Origin: Micromonospora ureilytica
Lineage (GTDB): Bacteria; Actinomycetota; Actinomycetes; Mycobacteriales; Micromonosporaceae
Reading direction: 5' to 3'
Length of the DNA stretch: 64,000 nt
Assembly: GCF_015751765.1 (NCBI RefSeq)
Contig: NZ_JADOTX010000001.1
Location: forward strand, 2,976,001-3,040,000
The notes under the pieces are model-generated. The model made no database searches. It was given only the letters and a program-made list of their open reading frames with translations, and had not been told where the DNA came from. This document shows positions 3,801 to 27,560 of the stretch, in pieces; the stretch's first letter is position 1, and every line of letters begins with the position of its first letter. Position numbers and translations under genes: made by a program.

Positions 3801-5132
3801 TCAGCTGCGGGCCTCGTCCAGCACCGGCTCCGCGGCCTGGTCGGCGTCGGTGTCGGTGTCATCGGGTACCCGGCTCAGTCGTACCTCGGTGATCGCCCGG
3901 TGGTCGATGCCGGCCACCACCAGCACCCAGCCGTCCAGCGTGACGTCCTCGCCGGCGACGGTGGGGATGTGCCCGAGCCGGGCCAGCACCAGCCCGGCGA
4001 CGGTCGTGTAGTCACCGGCGGGGCGCGACGGCAGCTCCACGCCGATGTCCGTGAGGTCGTGCACCGGGAAGGTGCCGGGCAGCAGCAGCGCGCCGTCGGG
4101 GTCGCGGCGCACCGAGCGCACATCCCGGTCGGTCTCGTCGTAGATCTCGCCGACGATCTCCTCCAGAATGTCCTCCAGTGTCACGATGCCGTCGACGGCG
4201 CCGCGCTCGTCCACGACCAGCGCGATGTGCTGACGCTCGGCCTTGAACTGGCGCAGCGCGTCCACCACCGGTAGCGAGTCGGGCAGCAGCATCGGCGGTC
4301 GGGCGATCTCGTCGACCGGGCGGTCGTCGGGCACACCCACCAGGTCACGCAGGTGGATCACCCCGGCCGTGTCGTCCAGGCCGCCGTGGCGCACCACCGG
4401 AGCACGGGAGTGCCCGGTGGCGGCCAGCACGAGCCGCGCGGCCTCCGCGGTGGTCCCGCTGTCGAGCGTGAAGACCTGCAACCGGGGTACGAGGACAGCC
4501 CGCAACCGCCGGTCGGCGATCTCCACGGCGCCCGCGATGATGGTGCGCTGTTCCTTGGTGAAGCCGTGGTTGCCGGCGACGATGTCGCGCAGTTCGTCCG
4601 GGCCGATCTCCTCCGGCTGGTGTTTGGGGTTGAGCCCGACCAGGCGGACCACCACGTCGCTGGTGGCGCCGAGCGCCCAGACGGCCGGCCGGGTGAGGCT
4701 CGCGAGCAGGTCGAGTGGGCGGGCCACCAGCAGCGCCCACCGCTCGGCGGACTGCATGGCGATCCGCTTGGGCGCCAGCTCGCCGAAGACCAGGGTGACG
4801 AAGGTCAGCGCCAGGGTGACCATCACGATCGCCGCCGTCTCGGCGGCGCCGCCGAACACCCCGAGCAGGGGCACCAGGGGTTTGGCCAGCGAGACCGCCG
4901 CGGCGGCGGAGGCCAGGAAACCGGCGAGGGTGATGCCGATCTGGATGGTGGCCAGGAAGCGGTTCGGGTCCTTGGCGAGCCGGGCCAGCACCCGCCCGGC
5001 CCGGCTGGTGCGCTCCAGCCGCTGGATCTGGCTGTCCCGCAGCGACACCAACGCCATCTCGCTGCCCGCGAAGAGCGCGTTGATCACGACCAGGACTCCG
5101 ACCAGGGCCAGTTGGCTCCCGTAGCTCTGCAC
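3801..5132 (-). CDS. CNNM/CorC-type transporter (DUF21-CBS-CorC_HlyC)
   Basis: An integral membrane protein of the family long called hemolysin C/CorC, whose characterised members act in Mg2+ or related divalent-ion efflux. The order is an N-terminal DUF21 membrane domain (about residues 1-185, several hydrophobic segments, with NALFAGSEMAL near the start), a CBS pair (about 205-325, including LVVDERGAVDGIVTLEDILEE split across the second CBS) and a C-terminal CorC_HlyC domain. The GTG start (443 aa) has CGAGGGAG about 10 nt upstream; a GTG/ATG 30 nt earlier lacks a ribosome site. The ion transported cannot be told from sequence. Confidence 0.85.
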   Translation of the reverse strand: MQSYGSQLALVGVLVVINALFAGSEMALVSLRDSQIQRLERTSRAGRVLARLAKDPNRFLATIQIGITLAGFLASAAAAVSLAKPLVPLLGVFGGAAETAAIVMVTLALTFVTLVFGELAPKRIAMQSAERWALLVARPLDLLASLTRPAVWALGATSDVVVRLVGLNPKHQPEEIGPDELRDIVAGNHGFTKEQRTIIAGAVEIADRRLRAVLVPRLQVFTLDSGTTAEAARLVLAATGHSRAPVVRHGGLDDTAGVIHLRDLVGVPDDRPVDEIARPPMLLPDSLPVVDALRQFKAERQHIALVVDERGAVDGIVTLEDILEEIVGEIYDETDRDVRSVRRDPDGALLLPGTFPVHDLTDIGVELPSRPAGDYTTVAGLVLARLGHIPTVAGEDVTLDGWVLVVAGIDHRAITEVRLSRVPDDTDTDADQAAEPVLDEARS

Positions 5133-5266
5133 GCCCGGTTCGCTCCCTCGTGGTGGTGGCACCGGCCGCTACGCGCGGCACCCGCCGGTCGGCGAGCCCG
5201 CCCGGCGTAGGCGTTGTCTTTGCCCCGTCCGGCGCCGGCCGAATCCTGCCTCGGCGACGCTACGCC

Positions 5267-5328
5267 AATCGGGCGTCAGCGACGCCACGTCGAATCGGGC
5301 GTCAGCGACGCCGCGCTGAATCGGGCGT
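5267..5328. repeat. 26-bp tandem repeat, about 2.4 copies
   Basis: The 20-mer AATCGGGCGTCAGCGACGCC occurs at 5267-5286 and again at 5293-5312, and its first ten bases recur at 5319-5328, a strict 26-bp period. It lies between the CNNM gene start and the stop of the next gene. The copies contain GGCGTCnGCGACGCC-like internal symmetry. No function is evident. Confidence 0.8.
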
Positions 5329-5336
5329 GGACGGCG

Positions 5337-5978
5337 CTACGCCGTCGCGGTGCTCGGTGACGCCGGCAGGTCGAGGACGTACGAGTCGCCCTCCGGTCGG
5401 AAGCCGAGACGGTGGTAGTAGGGGGCGACCATCCGGGGCGGGCTGACCACCCGGTGGAAGCCGCGCTCGGTGAAGAGGTGGCTGCGCCGGTAGACGAACT
5501 CGCCCGGGGTGAAGTCACGGAACTTCGGGGTCACGTAGTCCAGATCGATCTGGGCGACACCGGGCGCCTCGGCGTGGGACAGCACCACCCCGACCACCTC
5601 GTCGGCCGTGACCACGAGGAACGCCGAGCGCCCCGACGCGGCCGGGTCCCAGTGGAAGTCGGGGTTGAACCGGGCGATGTCAGTGGCGTGCACCCGCAGC
5701 GTGTGCGCGAGGAACTGGTCCCCGACACCGACCTCCACCACCTGGTAGGTCTTCTCGTCGTGCCGGGTGGCGAGCATCCCGCGCAGGTACCAGATGTTGA
5801 TCACCGCGAGCACGACGTTGAGCCCGACCCCGGGCCAGACCTCGATCGCGGCGTTGTAGCCGATCAGCACGAAGCAGCCGACGAGGTTGAGCGCCCGCAA
5901 CCGCAGGATGCGCGACTGCAGCAGCGACCAGACCAGCACCGCGGAGCCGGCCCAGCCGACGAGATCCAACCAGTTCAC
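5337..5978 (-). CDS. membrane protein with C-terminal GNAT-like domain
   Basis: 213 residues of unknown function. The N-terminal ~75 residues contain three hydrophobic helices (WLDLVGWAGSAVLVWSLLQ, LNLVGCFVLIGYNAAIEVW, VGLNVVLAVINIWYL) in an arrangement like the YgjV/Imp small inner-membrane proteins. The remainder has the look of a degenerate GNAT fold: ...FLVVTADEVVGVVLSH, then APYYHRLGFRPEGDSYVLDL, the usual last motif of acetyltransferases. The coupling of a membrane anchor to an acetyltransferase-like domain is inferred; no catalytic residue can be assigned. The GNAT gene next door (10 bp away, same strand) may share its transcript. Confidence 0.65.
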   Translation of the reverse strand: MNWLDLVGWAGSAVLVWSLLQSRILRLRALNLVGCFVLIGYNAAIEVWPGVGLNVVLAVINIWYLRGMLATRHDEKTYQVVEVGVGDQFLAHTLRVHATDIARFNPDFHWDPAASGRSAFLVVTADEVVGVVLSHAEAPGVAQIDLDYVTPKFRDFTPGEFVYRRSHLFTERGFHRVVSPPRMVAPYYHRLGFRPEGDSYVLDLPASPSTATA

Positions 5979-23712: not shown

Positions 23713-23953
23713 TTCTTTCCCCGCTCAGTAGGTCGGGCTTGGAGTGGCAGCGGAACGGGCGGGAGCCCACGTAGTCGCCACACCTTGCACAGCGGCTTCC
23801 GCTCTCACCCGTTCCGGCCATGCGTCTACACAAGCCCCGGCGCTCGCTGGTGCCCAGCGCGGCAACGGCGCAGAACTGACGCATCCCCATTGCGTCACAT
23901 GGCGTGAGCTGGATGAATGGACCGTGACGGATGGAGGTGAAGGGAGGCGGTAC

Positions 23954-25120
23954 GTGGCGGACAGGCGTCGGCATCGGCTTGCCCAGCGCCGTAAGACGAT
24001 CGGGCTGAGCCAGGAACGCCTCGCCGAAGCCCTCGGCGTCGACCGCTCCACCATCGTGCGGTGGGAACGGGCGGAGACTGACCCGCAGCCCTGGCACCGG
24101 CCGCGTCTCGCTGCGGCCCTCAAGCTGTCGATCGAGGAACTGGCCGACCTTCTGGCCGACGTCGGCCAGGCACCGTCACCGCCCGACGAGCGTCTCGGCT
24201 ACGTGCTGCGCAACCCCGGCCGCGCCGACCTGATCGCTGTGGCGTACCTGAGGGAACGCGTGCAGCGCCTCGACGAGCACTACGACCAGACGCCCTCGAC
24301 GCTCCTGCTCGCCGAGGCCGGACAACTACATGGTCAGGCAATCTTCCTTCGCCAGCACGCCAGCAACGGGCCGGTTCAGCGCGAACTGGCGGCAGCAGTC
24401 GCCGAGTCCGCGACGTTGATGGGTCAACTCGTCTGGGACGCCGCGCAGCGGCGCGACCATGTCTCCAGCGCCGCCTACTTCGACCAAGCGATCAGCGCAG
24501 CCCAGGAAACGCGGGACGCGGTCACCGAGGCTAACGCGTTGCTCCGCAAGAGCTACCTCGCCCTCTACGGCACCAAGCAGCCCCACGCCGGCCTCGTCCT
24601 GACGACCCGCGCAGCCGCCGTCAGCAACAGGGACAGTCACGTCATCGCCGGCCTCGCCCAACTGCATCGGGCCGAGGCACACGCGATGCTCGGTCAGGCC
24701 GCGGACCGCTCCAACGCTCTCGGTACCGCTGAGGCTCACTTTGCCGCCGTCGACGACCGAGATCCAGCCACCGACATCTTTTGCCCCAGCCACTACACGA
24801 GGCTCGCGGGCTCCTGCTGGCTCTCTCTCAACAAGCCAGACCAAGCGGTGCCAGCGCTAGAAAACGCCCGACAACTGATCGCCGCACGCCGCAAATCCAC
24901 GGCCGTCATCCTCGGCAATCTCGCCCTCGCCAGCATCCTCCAACACGACATCGACGCCGCGACGTCCTACCTGCATCAGGCTGTCGACGTCATCGAGCGG
25001 ACCCGTGCCGGCGGTGGACTCAACCTCGCCTTCGCCGCCGCCCGACAGCTACGCCCCTGGCGCAACGAGCCCTCGGTCCAGGACGTGAACGACCGACTCC
25101 TCACACTCATGAGCCCGTAG
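23954..25120 (+). CDS. XRE-family HTH regulator with TPR domain
   Basis: 388 residues. N-terminal HTH_3 domain (RRKTIGLSQERLAEALGVDR, then TIVRWERAETDPQPWHRPRL) is followed by ~300 residues of helical repeats of the TPR type (for example ...AQETRDAVTEANALLRKSYLALYG, QAVPALENARQLIAARRKST). This is the plan of peptide-sensing and actinobacterial developmental regulators. GTG start with GGGAGG 6 nt upstream; a longer N-terminus read from earlier codons is not conserved-looking. Its stop overlaps the ribosome site of the next gene, so both are one transcript. Confidence 0.85.
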   Translation: MADRRRHRLAQRRKTIGLSQERLAEALGVDRSTIVRWERAETDPQPWHRPRLAAALKLSIEELADLLADVGQAPSPPDERLGYVLRNPGRADLIAVAYLRERVQRLDEHYDQTPSTLLLAEAGQLHGQAIFLRQHASNGPVQRELAAAVAESATLMGQLVWDAAQRRDHVSSAAYFDQAISAAQETRDAVTEANALLRKSYLALYGTKQPHAGLVLTTRAAAVSNRDSHVIAGLAQLHRAEAHAMLGQAADRSNALGTAEAHFAAVDDRDPATDIFCPSHYTRLAGSCWLSLNKPDQAVPALENARQLIAARRKSTAVILGNLALASILQHDIDAATSYLHQAVDVIERTRAGGGLNLAFAAARQLRPWRNEPSVQDVNDRLLTLMSP

Positions 25121-25130
25121 GAGCACCAAC

Positions 25131-25841
25131 GTGACCGACATCGACCGCGCCAAACACGCCGTTCGGCAACACGTTTGGGACCTCCTCGAACGTCAAGGTG
25201 TCGTCCCACCCGGCGTGCACGGTCACATCCCTGACTTCGTCGGCAAGGAAGGGGCCGCAACCCGCCTCGCGGAACTGGACGTCTGGAAGAACGCCCGAGT
25301 TATCAAATGCAACCCCGACCGGGCACAGCTTGCCGTCCGGGTACGAGCCCTGCAGGAAGGCAAGCTGCTCTACATGGCAGTCCCGAAACTCGCTACACCC
25401 AAGCCCTTCTATCTGCTCGACCCCGCCAGCCTCACCGCACCAATCGAGACCGCAGCTACGAGTAGCGGTGCACCGCAGGTCGCTCCCACCGTGGGACCCG
25501 CCGAAATGCGTCCGGTGGACCTCATCGTCTGTGGCAGCGTCGCTGTCAGCCGCCAGAGCGGCGTGCGGGTCGGTAAGGGCACCGGCTACTCCGACCTGGA
25601 GATCGCCCTCCTCACCGAGGCCGGACTCGTCACCACCGAGACCGCCATCGCCACCACGATCCACCAGACCCAACTACTTGAGGATGTGCTGCCCGACACG
25701 GACCATGACTTCAGCGTCGACTTCGCGATCACGCCGAACGAGGTAGTGGCTTGCAGACCCGACCGGGGACGGCCGTCCGGCATCATCAGATCAAACCTTC
25801 TTCAAGATCAGCTCGACAGCATTCCTATACTGCGCGCCTAG
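25131..25841 (+). CDS. 5-formyl-THF cyclo-ligase-like protein (MTHFSD type)
   Basis: 236 residues. The fold signature SGVRVGKGTGYSDLEIALL is closer to the MTHFSD-like branch (RVGKGxGYxDLE) than to true cyclo-ligases (RLGxGxGYYDR). N-terminal IPDFVGKEGAATRLAELDVW and KCNPDRAQLAVRVRALQEGK also fit that branch. Folate-ring closure is therefore uncertain; a nucleotide/folate-like ligand is the best guess. GTG start with TAGGAG overlapping the regulator's stop codon, indicating translational coupling with the XRE-TPR gene. Confidence 0.75.
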   Translation: MTDIDRAKHAVRQHVWDLLERQGVVPPGVHGHIPDFVGKEGAATRLAELDVWKNARVIKCNPDRAQLAVRVRALQEGKLLYMAVPKLATPKPFYLLDPASLTAPIETAATSSGAPQVAPTVGPAEMRPVDLIVCGSVAVSRQSGVRVGKGTGYSDLEIALLTEAGLVTTETAIATTIHQTQLLEDVLPDTDHDFSVDFAITPNEVVACRPDRGRPSGIIRSNLLQDQLDSIPILRA

Positions 25842-26375: not shown

Positions 26376-26576
26376 CTAGCGCCGCGTTGATGAGTGCCTC
26401 AGGTATAACGCACCCACCGCGAGGACCAGGGAGAGACAACCTAGTGCCCCTGTGATCCACACCTGGTGCTGCTCATGCGGACGGAACAGCGGGGGAACTG
26501 ACAGGATGAACGCGCCTGCCGCCAAGGCCATTCCGATGAGTAGCACCGCAGGAAGCAGGTTAGACATATTGCGCAT
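26376..26576 (-). CDS. small two-TM membrane protein, possible immunity protein
   Basis: 66 residues almost entirely made of two hydrophobic helices (LLPAVLLIGMALAAGAFILS and VWITGALGCLSLVLAVGALYL, the second trimmed by one residue) joined by a charged turn RPHEQHQ. AAGGA lies 7 nt before the ATG and overlaps the stop codon of the upstream gene, so the two are translationally coupled. No family recognised. The pairing with a Cys-rich peptide gene suggests export or self-protection, by inference only. Confidence 0.6.
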   Translation of the reverse strand: MRNMSNLLPAVLLIGMALAAGAFILSVPPLFRPHEQHQVWITGALGCLSLVLAVGALYLRHSSTRR

Positions 26577-26585
26577 GTCAAATCC

Positions 26586-26927
26586 TTACTTGAAGCAACT
26601 TGCGATTGCTGTGATGGAAGCACCGCCGATAGTGGCGTAGGCAGCGATGCACGCAATACAGAACGGGACACCGCCACCGACGCAATACCTCGTGCTTTGG
26701 GCTTCGTGCGACGTATCCGTCGAGCTGTTCTTCTGCAACTGAGCATCAGACATGTAGGGCATCTGTGTCCTGGCTGCTGATGAGTTGCCATCGCTGTAGC
26801 TGGTGATGTTGAAGTTCCCGGCGGCGTTCTCACTGATGTACGTCTCGGTGTACTGGACGATACTGCTTTTCTCGTCGAAGAGGACAATGAAGTTACTCGT
26901 CAGGCTGTAACCGGCGCCGATGGGCAC
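26586..26927 (-). CDS. putative Cys-rich secreted peptide precursor
   Basis: 113 residues from a GTG. The body (LTSNFIVLFDEKSSIVQYTE, NAAGNFNITSYSDG) is a Ser/Thr/Asn-rich pro-region; the C-terminal 34 residues are Gly/Ala/Ile-rich with four cysteines in the order C-x8-C-x2-C-x17-C, ending SCFK. This leader-plus-hydrophobic-core layout recalls precursor peptides of circular, sactipeptide or halocin-like bacteriocins, but I recognise no family. An ATG at 27034 in another frame (MKSRLVTPRVAKSALKTSDA...) may be the original N-terminus, joined by a one-base frameshift near 26935. DNA is visibly AT-richer than the neighbours, pointing to transfer. Confidence 0.55.
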   Translation of the reverse strand: MPIGAGYSLTSNFIVLFDEKSSIVQYTETYISENAAGNFNITSYSDGNSSAARTQMPYMSDAQLQKNSSTDTSHEAQSTRYCVGGGVPFCIACIAAYATIGGASITAIASCFK

Positions 26928-27092
26928 GATCGCGGCCGGTAGGTGCCCTGCTCTGACGGGGTGGCGTAGACCTTGGCATCTGATGTCTTGAGCGCACTCT
27001 TCGCGACGCGAGGGGTGACCAGACGGCTTTTCATCGCCGCGGCCACATCGGTCAGGGCTTCCGCCCCGTCAACCCAGCCGACCCAACGTCCT

Positions 27093-27362
27093 CGCCCGTT
27101 CCACCCCTACCTGCGGCAACGCCTCACCGATGGCGTCCACCACACCGCCGACCTGCACACCGAGATCCTTGCCTGCGGCCAACAGGGCAGCCTGCGCGCA
27201 CTGCAAGACTGGCTCACCACCAACCTCGCCGACGCCCGCAACCGCTGCCCGGACCTCGACGCCGTCGCCGACCTCGCCCGCCGGTTCACCGCACTGGTCC
27301 GCCACCAAGGCACCGGACAACACCTCGACGCCTGGATTCACCGCGCCCGACACGGCACGGCG
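27093..27362 (+). pseudogene. ISL3-family transposase fragment
   Basis: The plus-strand reading FHPYLRQRLTDGVHHTADLH, EILACGQQGSLRALQDWL and LDAVADLARRFTALVRHQGT, DAWIHRARH follows the ISL3 transposase segment that begins KPYLxxRWxEG and includes the central DxLxxWxxxA region. Both ends are missing and no catalytic DDE set is complete. It sits immediately upstream of the Cys-rich peptide gene in the opposite orientation and may have cut into its promoter. Confidence 0.65.
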
Positions 27363-27471
27363 CATGGTGGTTCATCTATCCGCCGCACGCGGCACGCGCC
27401 CAACGGGGCGTGGCCGGTCCAACGGCTTCCGAGCACCCGCCGAGCGACCACTCACCATCGACGTACACGAG

Positions 27472-27514
27472 AAGGGCCCCGACCCGGTGTGAACCACCAG
27501 GTCAGGGCCCTTTT
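27472..27514. terminator. tRNA-type terminator, bidirectional
   Basis: Arms AAGGGCCCCGACC and GGTCAGGGCCCTT (12 of 13 paired) enclose a second small stem GGTG/CACC; a TTTT run follows on the plus strand. It stands 3 nt beyond the CCA end of the tRNA-Lys remnant and is presumably that gene's own terminator. It would also end the pheS-pheT transcript. Confidence 0.75.
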
Positions 27515-27517
27515 CGT

Positions 27518-27560
27518 TGGTGCGCCGCCAGGGACTCGAACCCCGAACCCGCGGATTAAG
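27518..27560 (-). tRNA. orphan 3' half of tRNA-Lys(CUU)
   Basis: Reading the minus strand, the sequence starts exactly at CTT (27560-27558) in the anticodon and continues through the anticodon-stem 3' side, variable loop, T-arm (GGTTCGAGTCC core as GGGGTTCGAGTCCC) and acceptor 3' strand ending CACCA. The 5' half (acceptor 5' strand, D-arm and anticodon 5' side) is absent; the sequence on that side is unrelated. A 43-nt tRNA 3' remnant that breaks in the anticodon loop is the classic footprint of a tyrosine-recombinase attachment site. Confidence 0.85.

Follow-up and report, generated by a model that had tools for sequence, protein, structure and literature searches.

A probable decayed remnant of a bacteriocin-type two-gene system, with its two-TM partner gene still open, in Micromonospora ureilytica

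In the 64,000-nucleotide stretch of Micromonospora ureilytica DNA analysed here (the window), we found a minus-strand gene pair which, on balance, we regard as the decayed trace of a bacteriocin-type system that was probably gained by horizontal transfer and whose two genes would encode a secreted disulfide-rich peptide and an immunity partner. From sequence comparison, the homology of the precursor to a family present in other bacteria, its linkage to the partner in the window's branch and the decay of the window copy are solid, and a bacteriocin-type role can reasonably be inferred as the best reading by analogy and from weak profile scores.

The two open reading frames claimed by the sequence-only reading are both present, each with homologues beyond chance: a 113-aa ORF with a GTG start and, beginning 9 bases downstream of it, a 66-aa ORF with an ATG start (Table 1). 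As had been described, the ribosome site of the second gene lies on the stop codon of the first (TAAGGA, then ATG), a layout that is similar in loci L001, L002, L006 and L008, unlike L010, where a 60-base gap separates precursor and partner. The two membrane segments ascribed to the partner are recovered as two hydrophobic stretches, with Kyte-Doolittle 19-residue means, taken from residues 7 and 39, of 2.49 and 2.13, respectively. Other statements had to be adjusted. The distinct base composition holds against the window as a whole (GC 0.55 for the 113-aa ORF and 0.60 for the partner vs 0.716) but is shared with its first 2 kb, positions 1-2000 being nearly as AT-rich as the gene pair (GC 0.587 and 0.603). 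The cysteine spacing, given as C-x8-C-x2-C-x17-C, is corrected to C-x7-C-x2-C-x17-C. Regarding the 113-aa ORF, its assignment as a precursor stands by homology to pro-domain and core, but it is the C-terminal part of a broken one, with no signal-peptide part and a short core.

Table 1. Features of the gene pair and its surroundings (window positions).
Feature	Position	Strand	Basis
Two-TM partner gene, 66 aa, open, apparently whole; probable immunity/accessory protein	26376..26576	-	profile A6, alignment, hydropathy
Precursor stop and overlapping/abutting partner ribosome site	26577..26590	-	sequence inspection
C-terminal part of precursor pseudogene (second half of pro-domain and core remnant), 113 aa	26586..26927	-	tblastn, alignment
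Core remnant, 33 residues, 4 Cys	26586..26687	-	alignments with L001, L002, L010; cysteine pattern
Upstream pro-domain piece, different reading frame	26930..27073	-	three-frame translation, alignment
ISL3-family transposase gene remnant at expected signal-peptide position	27054..27389	+	tblastn
47-bp copy (98%) of the 3' end of the tRNA-Lys(CTT) gene, next to pheT; likely attachment-site scar	27514..27560	-	sequence match to the genome's tRNA gene

The 113-aa piece is 44-46% identical to its Actinopolyspora and Streptomonospora homologues (tblastn). Aligned against three relatives (L001, L002 and L010), its core is without 25-27 residues, in frame, and with them two of the family's first three cysteines, which leaves four cysteines vs six; on the predicted core model, the missing piece would comprise helix 2 and the remainder of helix 1. 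By three-frame translation, a frame break near 26,93x separates this piece from the upstream pro-domain piece, a weak match when taken alone (11.1 bits, E=0.03, profile A5), and no signal-peptide part lies upstream of the precursor, its place being taken by the ISL3 remnant. In tblastn, the latter is matched at 30% (E=5e-6) by a plasmid-borne Streptomyces transposase annotated as ISL3; no Pfam family matches it above cut-off. The window copy thus has neither the whole frame nor the signal peptide nor the full set of six core cysteines that mark intact members, being truncated, frame-broken and without about half of the conserved core. Judged from its sequence, it is probably dead, with the partner still open. 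Therefore, the antimicrobial or signalling peptide system proposed by the sequence-only reading stands in so far as a bacteriocin-type role is the best reading, but not as a working system in the window, because of the truncation, the broken frame and the halved core.

With the 113-aa piece as query, a contig scan of GTDB returned three loci (Actinopolyspora, Paeniglutamicibacter and Halosaccharopolyspora; best E 3e-31), and the intact Actinopolyspora protein returned 28 rows at E<=0.01. A wider profile gave 12 rows, 11 of them new, the named ones being Peribacillus, Bacillus cereus, Shouchella, B. licheniformis and Cutibacterium, and tblastn on plasmids added Arthrobacter, Pseudalkalibacillus, B. 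licheniformis, B. subtilis, B. pumilus, Streptomyces and Terribacillus. Across these groups, the actinobacterial family profile reached 98.9% against the Bacillus pFL5 group and 98.1% against the Streptomyces/B. pumilus pair (hhalign). Intact members have ~230-275 residues, with a signal-peptide-like N-terminus (judged by inspection only), a pro-domain and a C-terminal hydrophobic core of ~60 residues, and the homologues support the earlier claim of a leader/pro/core-type precursor with a coupled small membrane protein. Homologues sharing the cysteine pattern in other genomes, on which that claim depended, were found: six conserved core cysteines are present in 37 of the 39 listed, with the family pattern C-x18-C-x3-C-x6..11-C-x2-C-x17-C and, in the pFL5 group, spacings of x17, x3, x7, x2 and x14.

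The core is the best-conserved part of the system, with a mean identity of 80% vs 57% for the pro-domain and 57% for the partner (45 comparisons among 10 precursor-partner pairs, nine of them paired by contigs of identical size, plus L010). AlphaFold predicts an alpha/beta pro-domain with high confidence and models the core as four helices (pLDDT 81, pTM 0.57). Core GRAVY values range from 0.87 to 1.56 in nine loci, and the core net charge lies between -1 and +1 in seven of the nine; being near neutral, the core is therefore no classic cationic peptide. The window copy is not the only damaged one, the Paeniglutamicibacter precursor (L002 4722-5444) carrying an in-frame stop while its partner is open. 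In Halosaccharopolyspora (L003 4719-5402), a deletion takes away the end of the precursor and apparently fuses its core to the partner tail, with no whole partner left. The distant Terribacillus plasmid member (L058 3839-4600) has extra C-terminal cysteines and possibly bridges towards the halocin-C8-like type, and the Arthrobacter member is followed at ~2 kb by a TasA-family gene and at ~3 kb by a signal peptidase I gene.

Regarding the two-TM partner, a search with profile A6 gave 73 rows at the E<=1 threshold, of which 72 lie at E<=3.3e-8; one row, P0051, is 94% identical to the window's. The gene lies directly downstream of the precursor in L001, L002 and L010, and in L005 too, where it is marginally recognisable (13.4 bits; hhalign 59%). 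It adjoins the precursor in four of the five actinobacterial loci with a recognisable full-length precursor, the fifth being L016, a Streptomyces plasmid locus without partner; the synteny with the two-TM gene that the earlier reading had proposed to check is thus found, in one branch. Moreover, 9 of the 28 precursors are on contigs identical in size to that of a partner row, three of the nine with neighbouring locus tags. The six plasmid loci from Bacillota or Streptomyces (L011, L012, L015, L016, L017 and L058) yielded no clear partner; a single marginal row in L015 (11.4 bits) lies on the opposite strand. Immunity at these loci would therefore need another source, for instance the pro-domain or, at pFL5, an unrelated downstream ORF (5042-5416). 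Annotation is sparse at two plasmid loci: the partner gene at L010 6670-6876 is missing from the PLSDB gene table for the Arthrobacter agilis plasmid, and the L016 stretch (Streptomyces p1) has zero listed genes in PLSDB.

In the window, L002, L006, L008, L021 and L024, the partner frame is open, and the precursor is either undetected or damaged by truncation, a frame break or a nonsense codon. The partner is present with no detected precursor in G250 and G283 and with a truncated one in G189, G338 and the window, the G189 locus lying near a contig end. The partner thus tends to survive loss of the precursor, which would be expected of an immunity gene, but the pattern is suggestive only, since a 66-codon gene is a small mutational target and its dN/dS of 0.67-1.01 among L001, L006, L008, L021 and L024 gives no sign of strong constraint; the other computable pairs give 0.19-0.58, at dS >1, where such values are unreliable. 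These data bear directly on the possibility, which we take seriously while rather doubting it, that the partner is an accessory for export, folding or processing and that the pro-domain self-protects, as the name of the TIGR04450 model suggests. The Bacillota members appear to manage without partner and the pro-domain is conserved across phyla (the hhalign value of 98.9%), whereas an open partner beside a decayed or undetected precursor is what a retained immunity gene would leave, an argument itself weakened by the small target, the dN/dS near 1 and the position of L006 near a contig end.

In a DNA search of 151 genomes of the genus, the pair was found only in the window's own genome (a second row, of 26 bases, is taken as chance), and by profile the precursor was absent from the 299 other genomes among 300 searched in the bacterial family. 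Among 394 genomes of the class, the precursor is present in four and the partner clearly in five, and the distribution of the precursor is patchy, plasmid- and island-borne. The interval between argC and pheT in which the pair lies (about 23,31x-23,35x to 27,57x-27,59x) is without equivalent in five relatives, a 25-bp match excepted, and its size varies from ~1.2 to 19 kb among six relatives (by coordinates); with the tRNA-Lys(CTT) copy next to pheT, this fits an old, tRNA-targeted mobile element. Because of the absence from the 299 family genomes and of this variable interval with its tRNA-Lys scar, the precursor was probably acquired horizontally, in line with the transfer proposed earlier. 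The same interval holds, on the plus strand, a gene for an NsdA-family HTH/TPR regulator (23744-25120; 123.8 bits, cut-off 75), followed by a 5-formyltetrahydrofolate cyclo-ligase-family gene (25131-25841), which scores 73.9 bits with Pfam and only 20.3 of 84.9 with the NCBIfam equivalog.

No Pfam or NCBIfam model matches the window's family at cut-off, as the sequence-only reading, which recognised no family, had anticipated; its term "undescribed" needs care, as distant members touch halocin-C8-like models. With TIGR04450, whose cut-off is 27 bits, L016 gives the best score (13.2 bits, E=0.051), ahead of P0036 (11.8 bits, E=0.14, nearly end to end) and L017 (8.1 bits, E=1.8), none of them significant. 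Among the families listed at E<=1 for the 28 A3 members this model is absent, and it reaches its cut-off in none of the 394 class genomes, the control Lactococcus lactis likewise matching only below cut-off. With NF040679, P0027 scores 16.4 bits (E=0.0051; cut-off 200), the sole one listed of the 28 A3 members; a search with this model matched neither the window's own genome nor any of 14 controls, so that its silence carries no weight. P0036 has one non-significant EntV_fam row (E=1.2). The kind, halocin-C8-like fusion precursors, is already suspected by curators; the branch in which a separate two-TM gene accompanies the precursor is new to the two libraries searched, Pfam and NCBIfam. On plasmid pFL5 of B. 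licheniformis (L012 3038-3885), thioredoxin-like and disulfide-oxidoreductase genes lie directly upstream of the precursor, annotated as hypothetical; of the six Bacillota or Streptomyces plasmid loci, with L016 judged from its ORF list only, this is the one where such disulfide genes are seen. Downstream of the pFL5 precursor, the ORF at L012 5042-5416 is hydrophobic-looking and has no NCBIfam match. The annotated plasmid neighbourhoods showed no dedicated transporter.

We favour the bacteriocin reading because of the leader/pro/core layout, the conservation of the core above the pro-domain, the six cysteines on a hydrophobic, predicted four-helix core, the patchy mobile distribution, the weak TIGR04450/NF040679 similarity and the disulfide-type genes at pFL5. 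In intact relatives, a Sec-type precursor would comprise a signal peptide, a pro-domain of ~130 residues and a core of ~60 residues, Gly/Ala-rich and folded in four short helices, whose six cysteines would presumably be paired as three disulfides. Once exported, the core would undergo oxidation and be released by an extracellular protease from the pro-domain, which would keep it inactive or protect in cis; the mature core would act on the membrane of competing bacteria, and the translationally coupled two-TM protein would, in the window's branch, protect the membrane of the producer. Secretion, disulfides, cleavage, killing and immunity are all steps we infer. The near-neutral core, the scores below cut-off, the restriction of disulfide genes to one locus and the lack of a conserved transporter in annotated plasmid neighbourhoods are points against this reading.

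It is unlikely that the core is a signalling or developmental peptide with the two-TM protein as exporter or sensor partner. The secretion-type layout and the highly conserved core would suit such a role, and three Bacillus plasmid members are on plasmids also carrying RapH-type genes; however, Rap proteins act with their own Phr peptides. To our knowledge, a 60-residue, six-cysteine hydrophobic core is also unlike known short signalling peptides, no clear partner was found in the Bacillota loci, and the pFL5 disulfide genes fit a disulfide-rich effector. We consider equally improbable a non-antagonistic family of secreted structural or surface proteins, to which a neutral, Gly/Ala-rich core and the TasA-family and signal peptidase I genes near the Arthrobacter member would point: the patchy plasmid- or island-borne distribution (4/394 class genomes), a precursor that has decayed repeatedly and a weak resemblance to halocin-C8-like models argue against it. 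Finally, the possibility that the two ORFs arose by chance in decayed mobile-element remains and never formed a gene pair, as the ISL3 piece, tRNA scar and broken precursor might suggest, is refuted by the homology of the precursor fragment (E down to 9.5e-34 by tblastn in a small database and 3e-31 in the contig scan) and of the partner (94% identity).

Returning to the bacteriocin reading, a wider proposition has in our view an even chance of being right: that the window preserves a fossil from an unnamed bacteriocin class, Sec-secreted and built on six cysteines and four helices, which is spread over Actinomycetota and Bacillota on plasmids and islands and which, in the window's actinobacterial branch, has a dedicated two-TM immunity gene, often missed in annotation, that persists after decay of the killer gene. 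If true, this would be a ribosomal peptide family unrecognised by Pfam/NCBIfam in this branch, with a compact and easily expressed two-gene layout, and a testable example of a resistance partner outlasting its killer gene; halocin-C8-like precursors would be extended to actinomycetes (Actinopolyspora, Arthrobacter and Cutibacterium relatives). The main interest lies in the intact family in other bacteria rather than in the decayed copy of the window.

One of the closest known systems is TIGR04450 (Gpos_C8_like, putative immunity/bacteriocin fusion bifunctional protein), whose name suggests a secreted precursor with an N-terminal domain and a Cys-rich bacteriocin-like C-terminus. Total lengths are similar (the profile has 240 positions), the weak matches run from the pro-domain (the N-terminus in P0036) into or through the Cys-rich C-terminus, and intact relatives, judged by inspection and alignment, may fit this layout provided that they are secreted; the window copy lacks the N-terminus. 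Unlike TIGR04450, the window's branch adds a separate two-TM gene, and scores of 8-13 bits vs 27 were obtained only with the distant members L016, L017 and P0036. With NF040679 (halocin C8 precursor-like protein), residues 5-225 of P0027 align to positions 2-210 of 243; archaeal halocin C8 is a ten-cysteine mature peptide, and the family core has six. In the sublancin operon, bdbA/bdbB accompany the peptide gene (PMC5100339), as do the thioredoxin-like and disulfide-oxidoreductase genes at pFL5. Sublancin is a glycosylated peptide whose precursor has 56 residues, 19 of them leader (PMC5100339), unlike the ~230-275-residue family precursor with its signal-peptide-like N-terminus. The SunI immunity gene is expressed homogeneously, also in cells not making the peptide (PMC6391423). 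By analogy and not by sequence, EntV of Enterococcus faecalis, a secreted bacteriocin with an active 68-residue piece that needs protease cleavage and a disulfide (PMC6606811), offers a precedent for both steps in a secreted bacteriocin.
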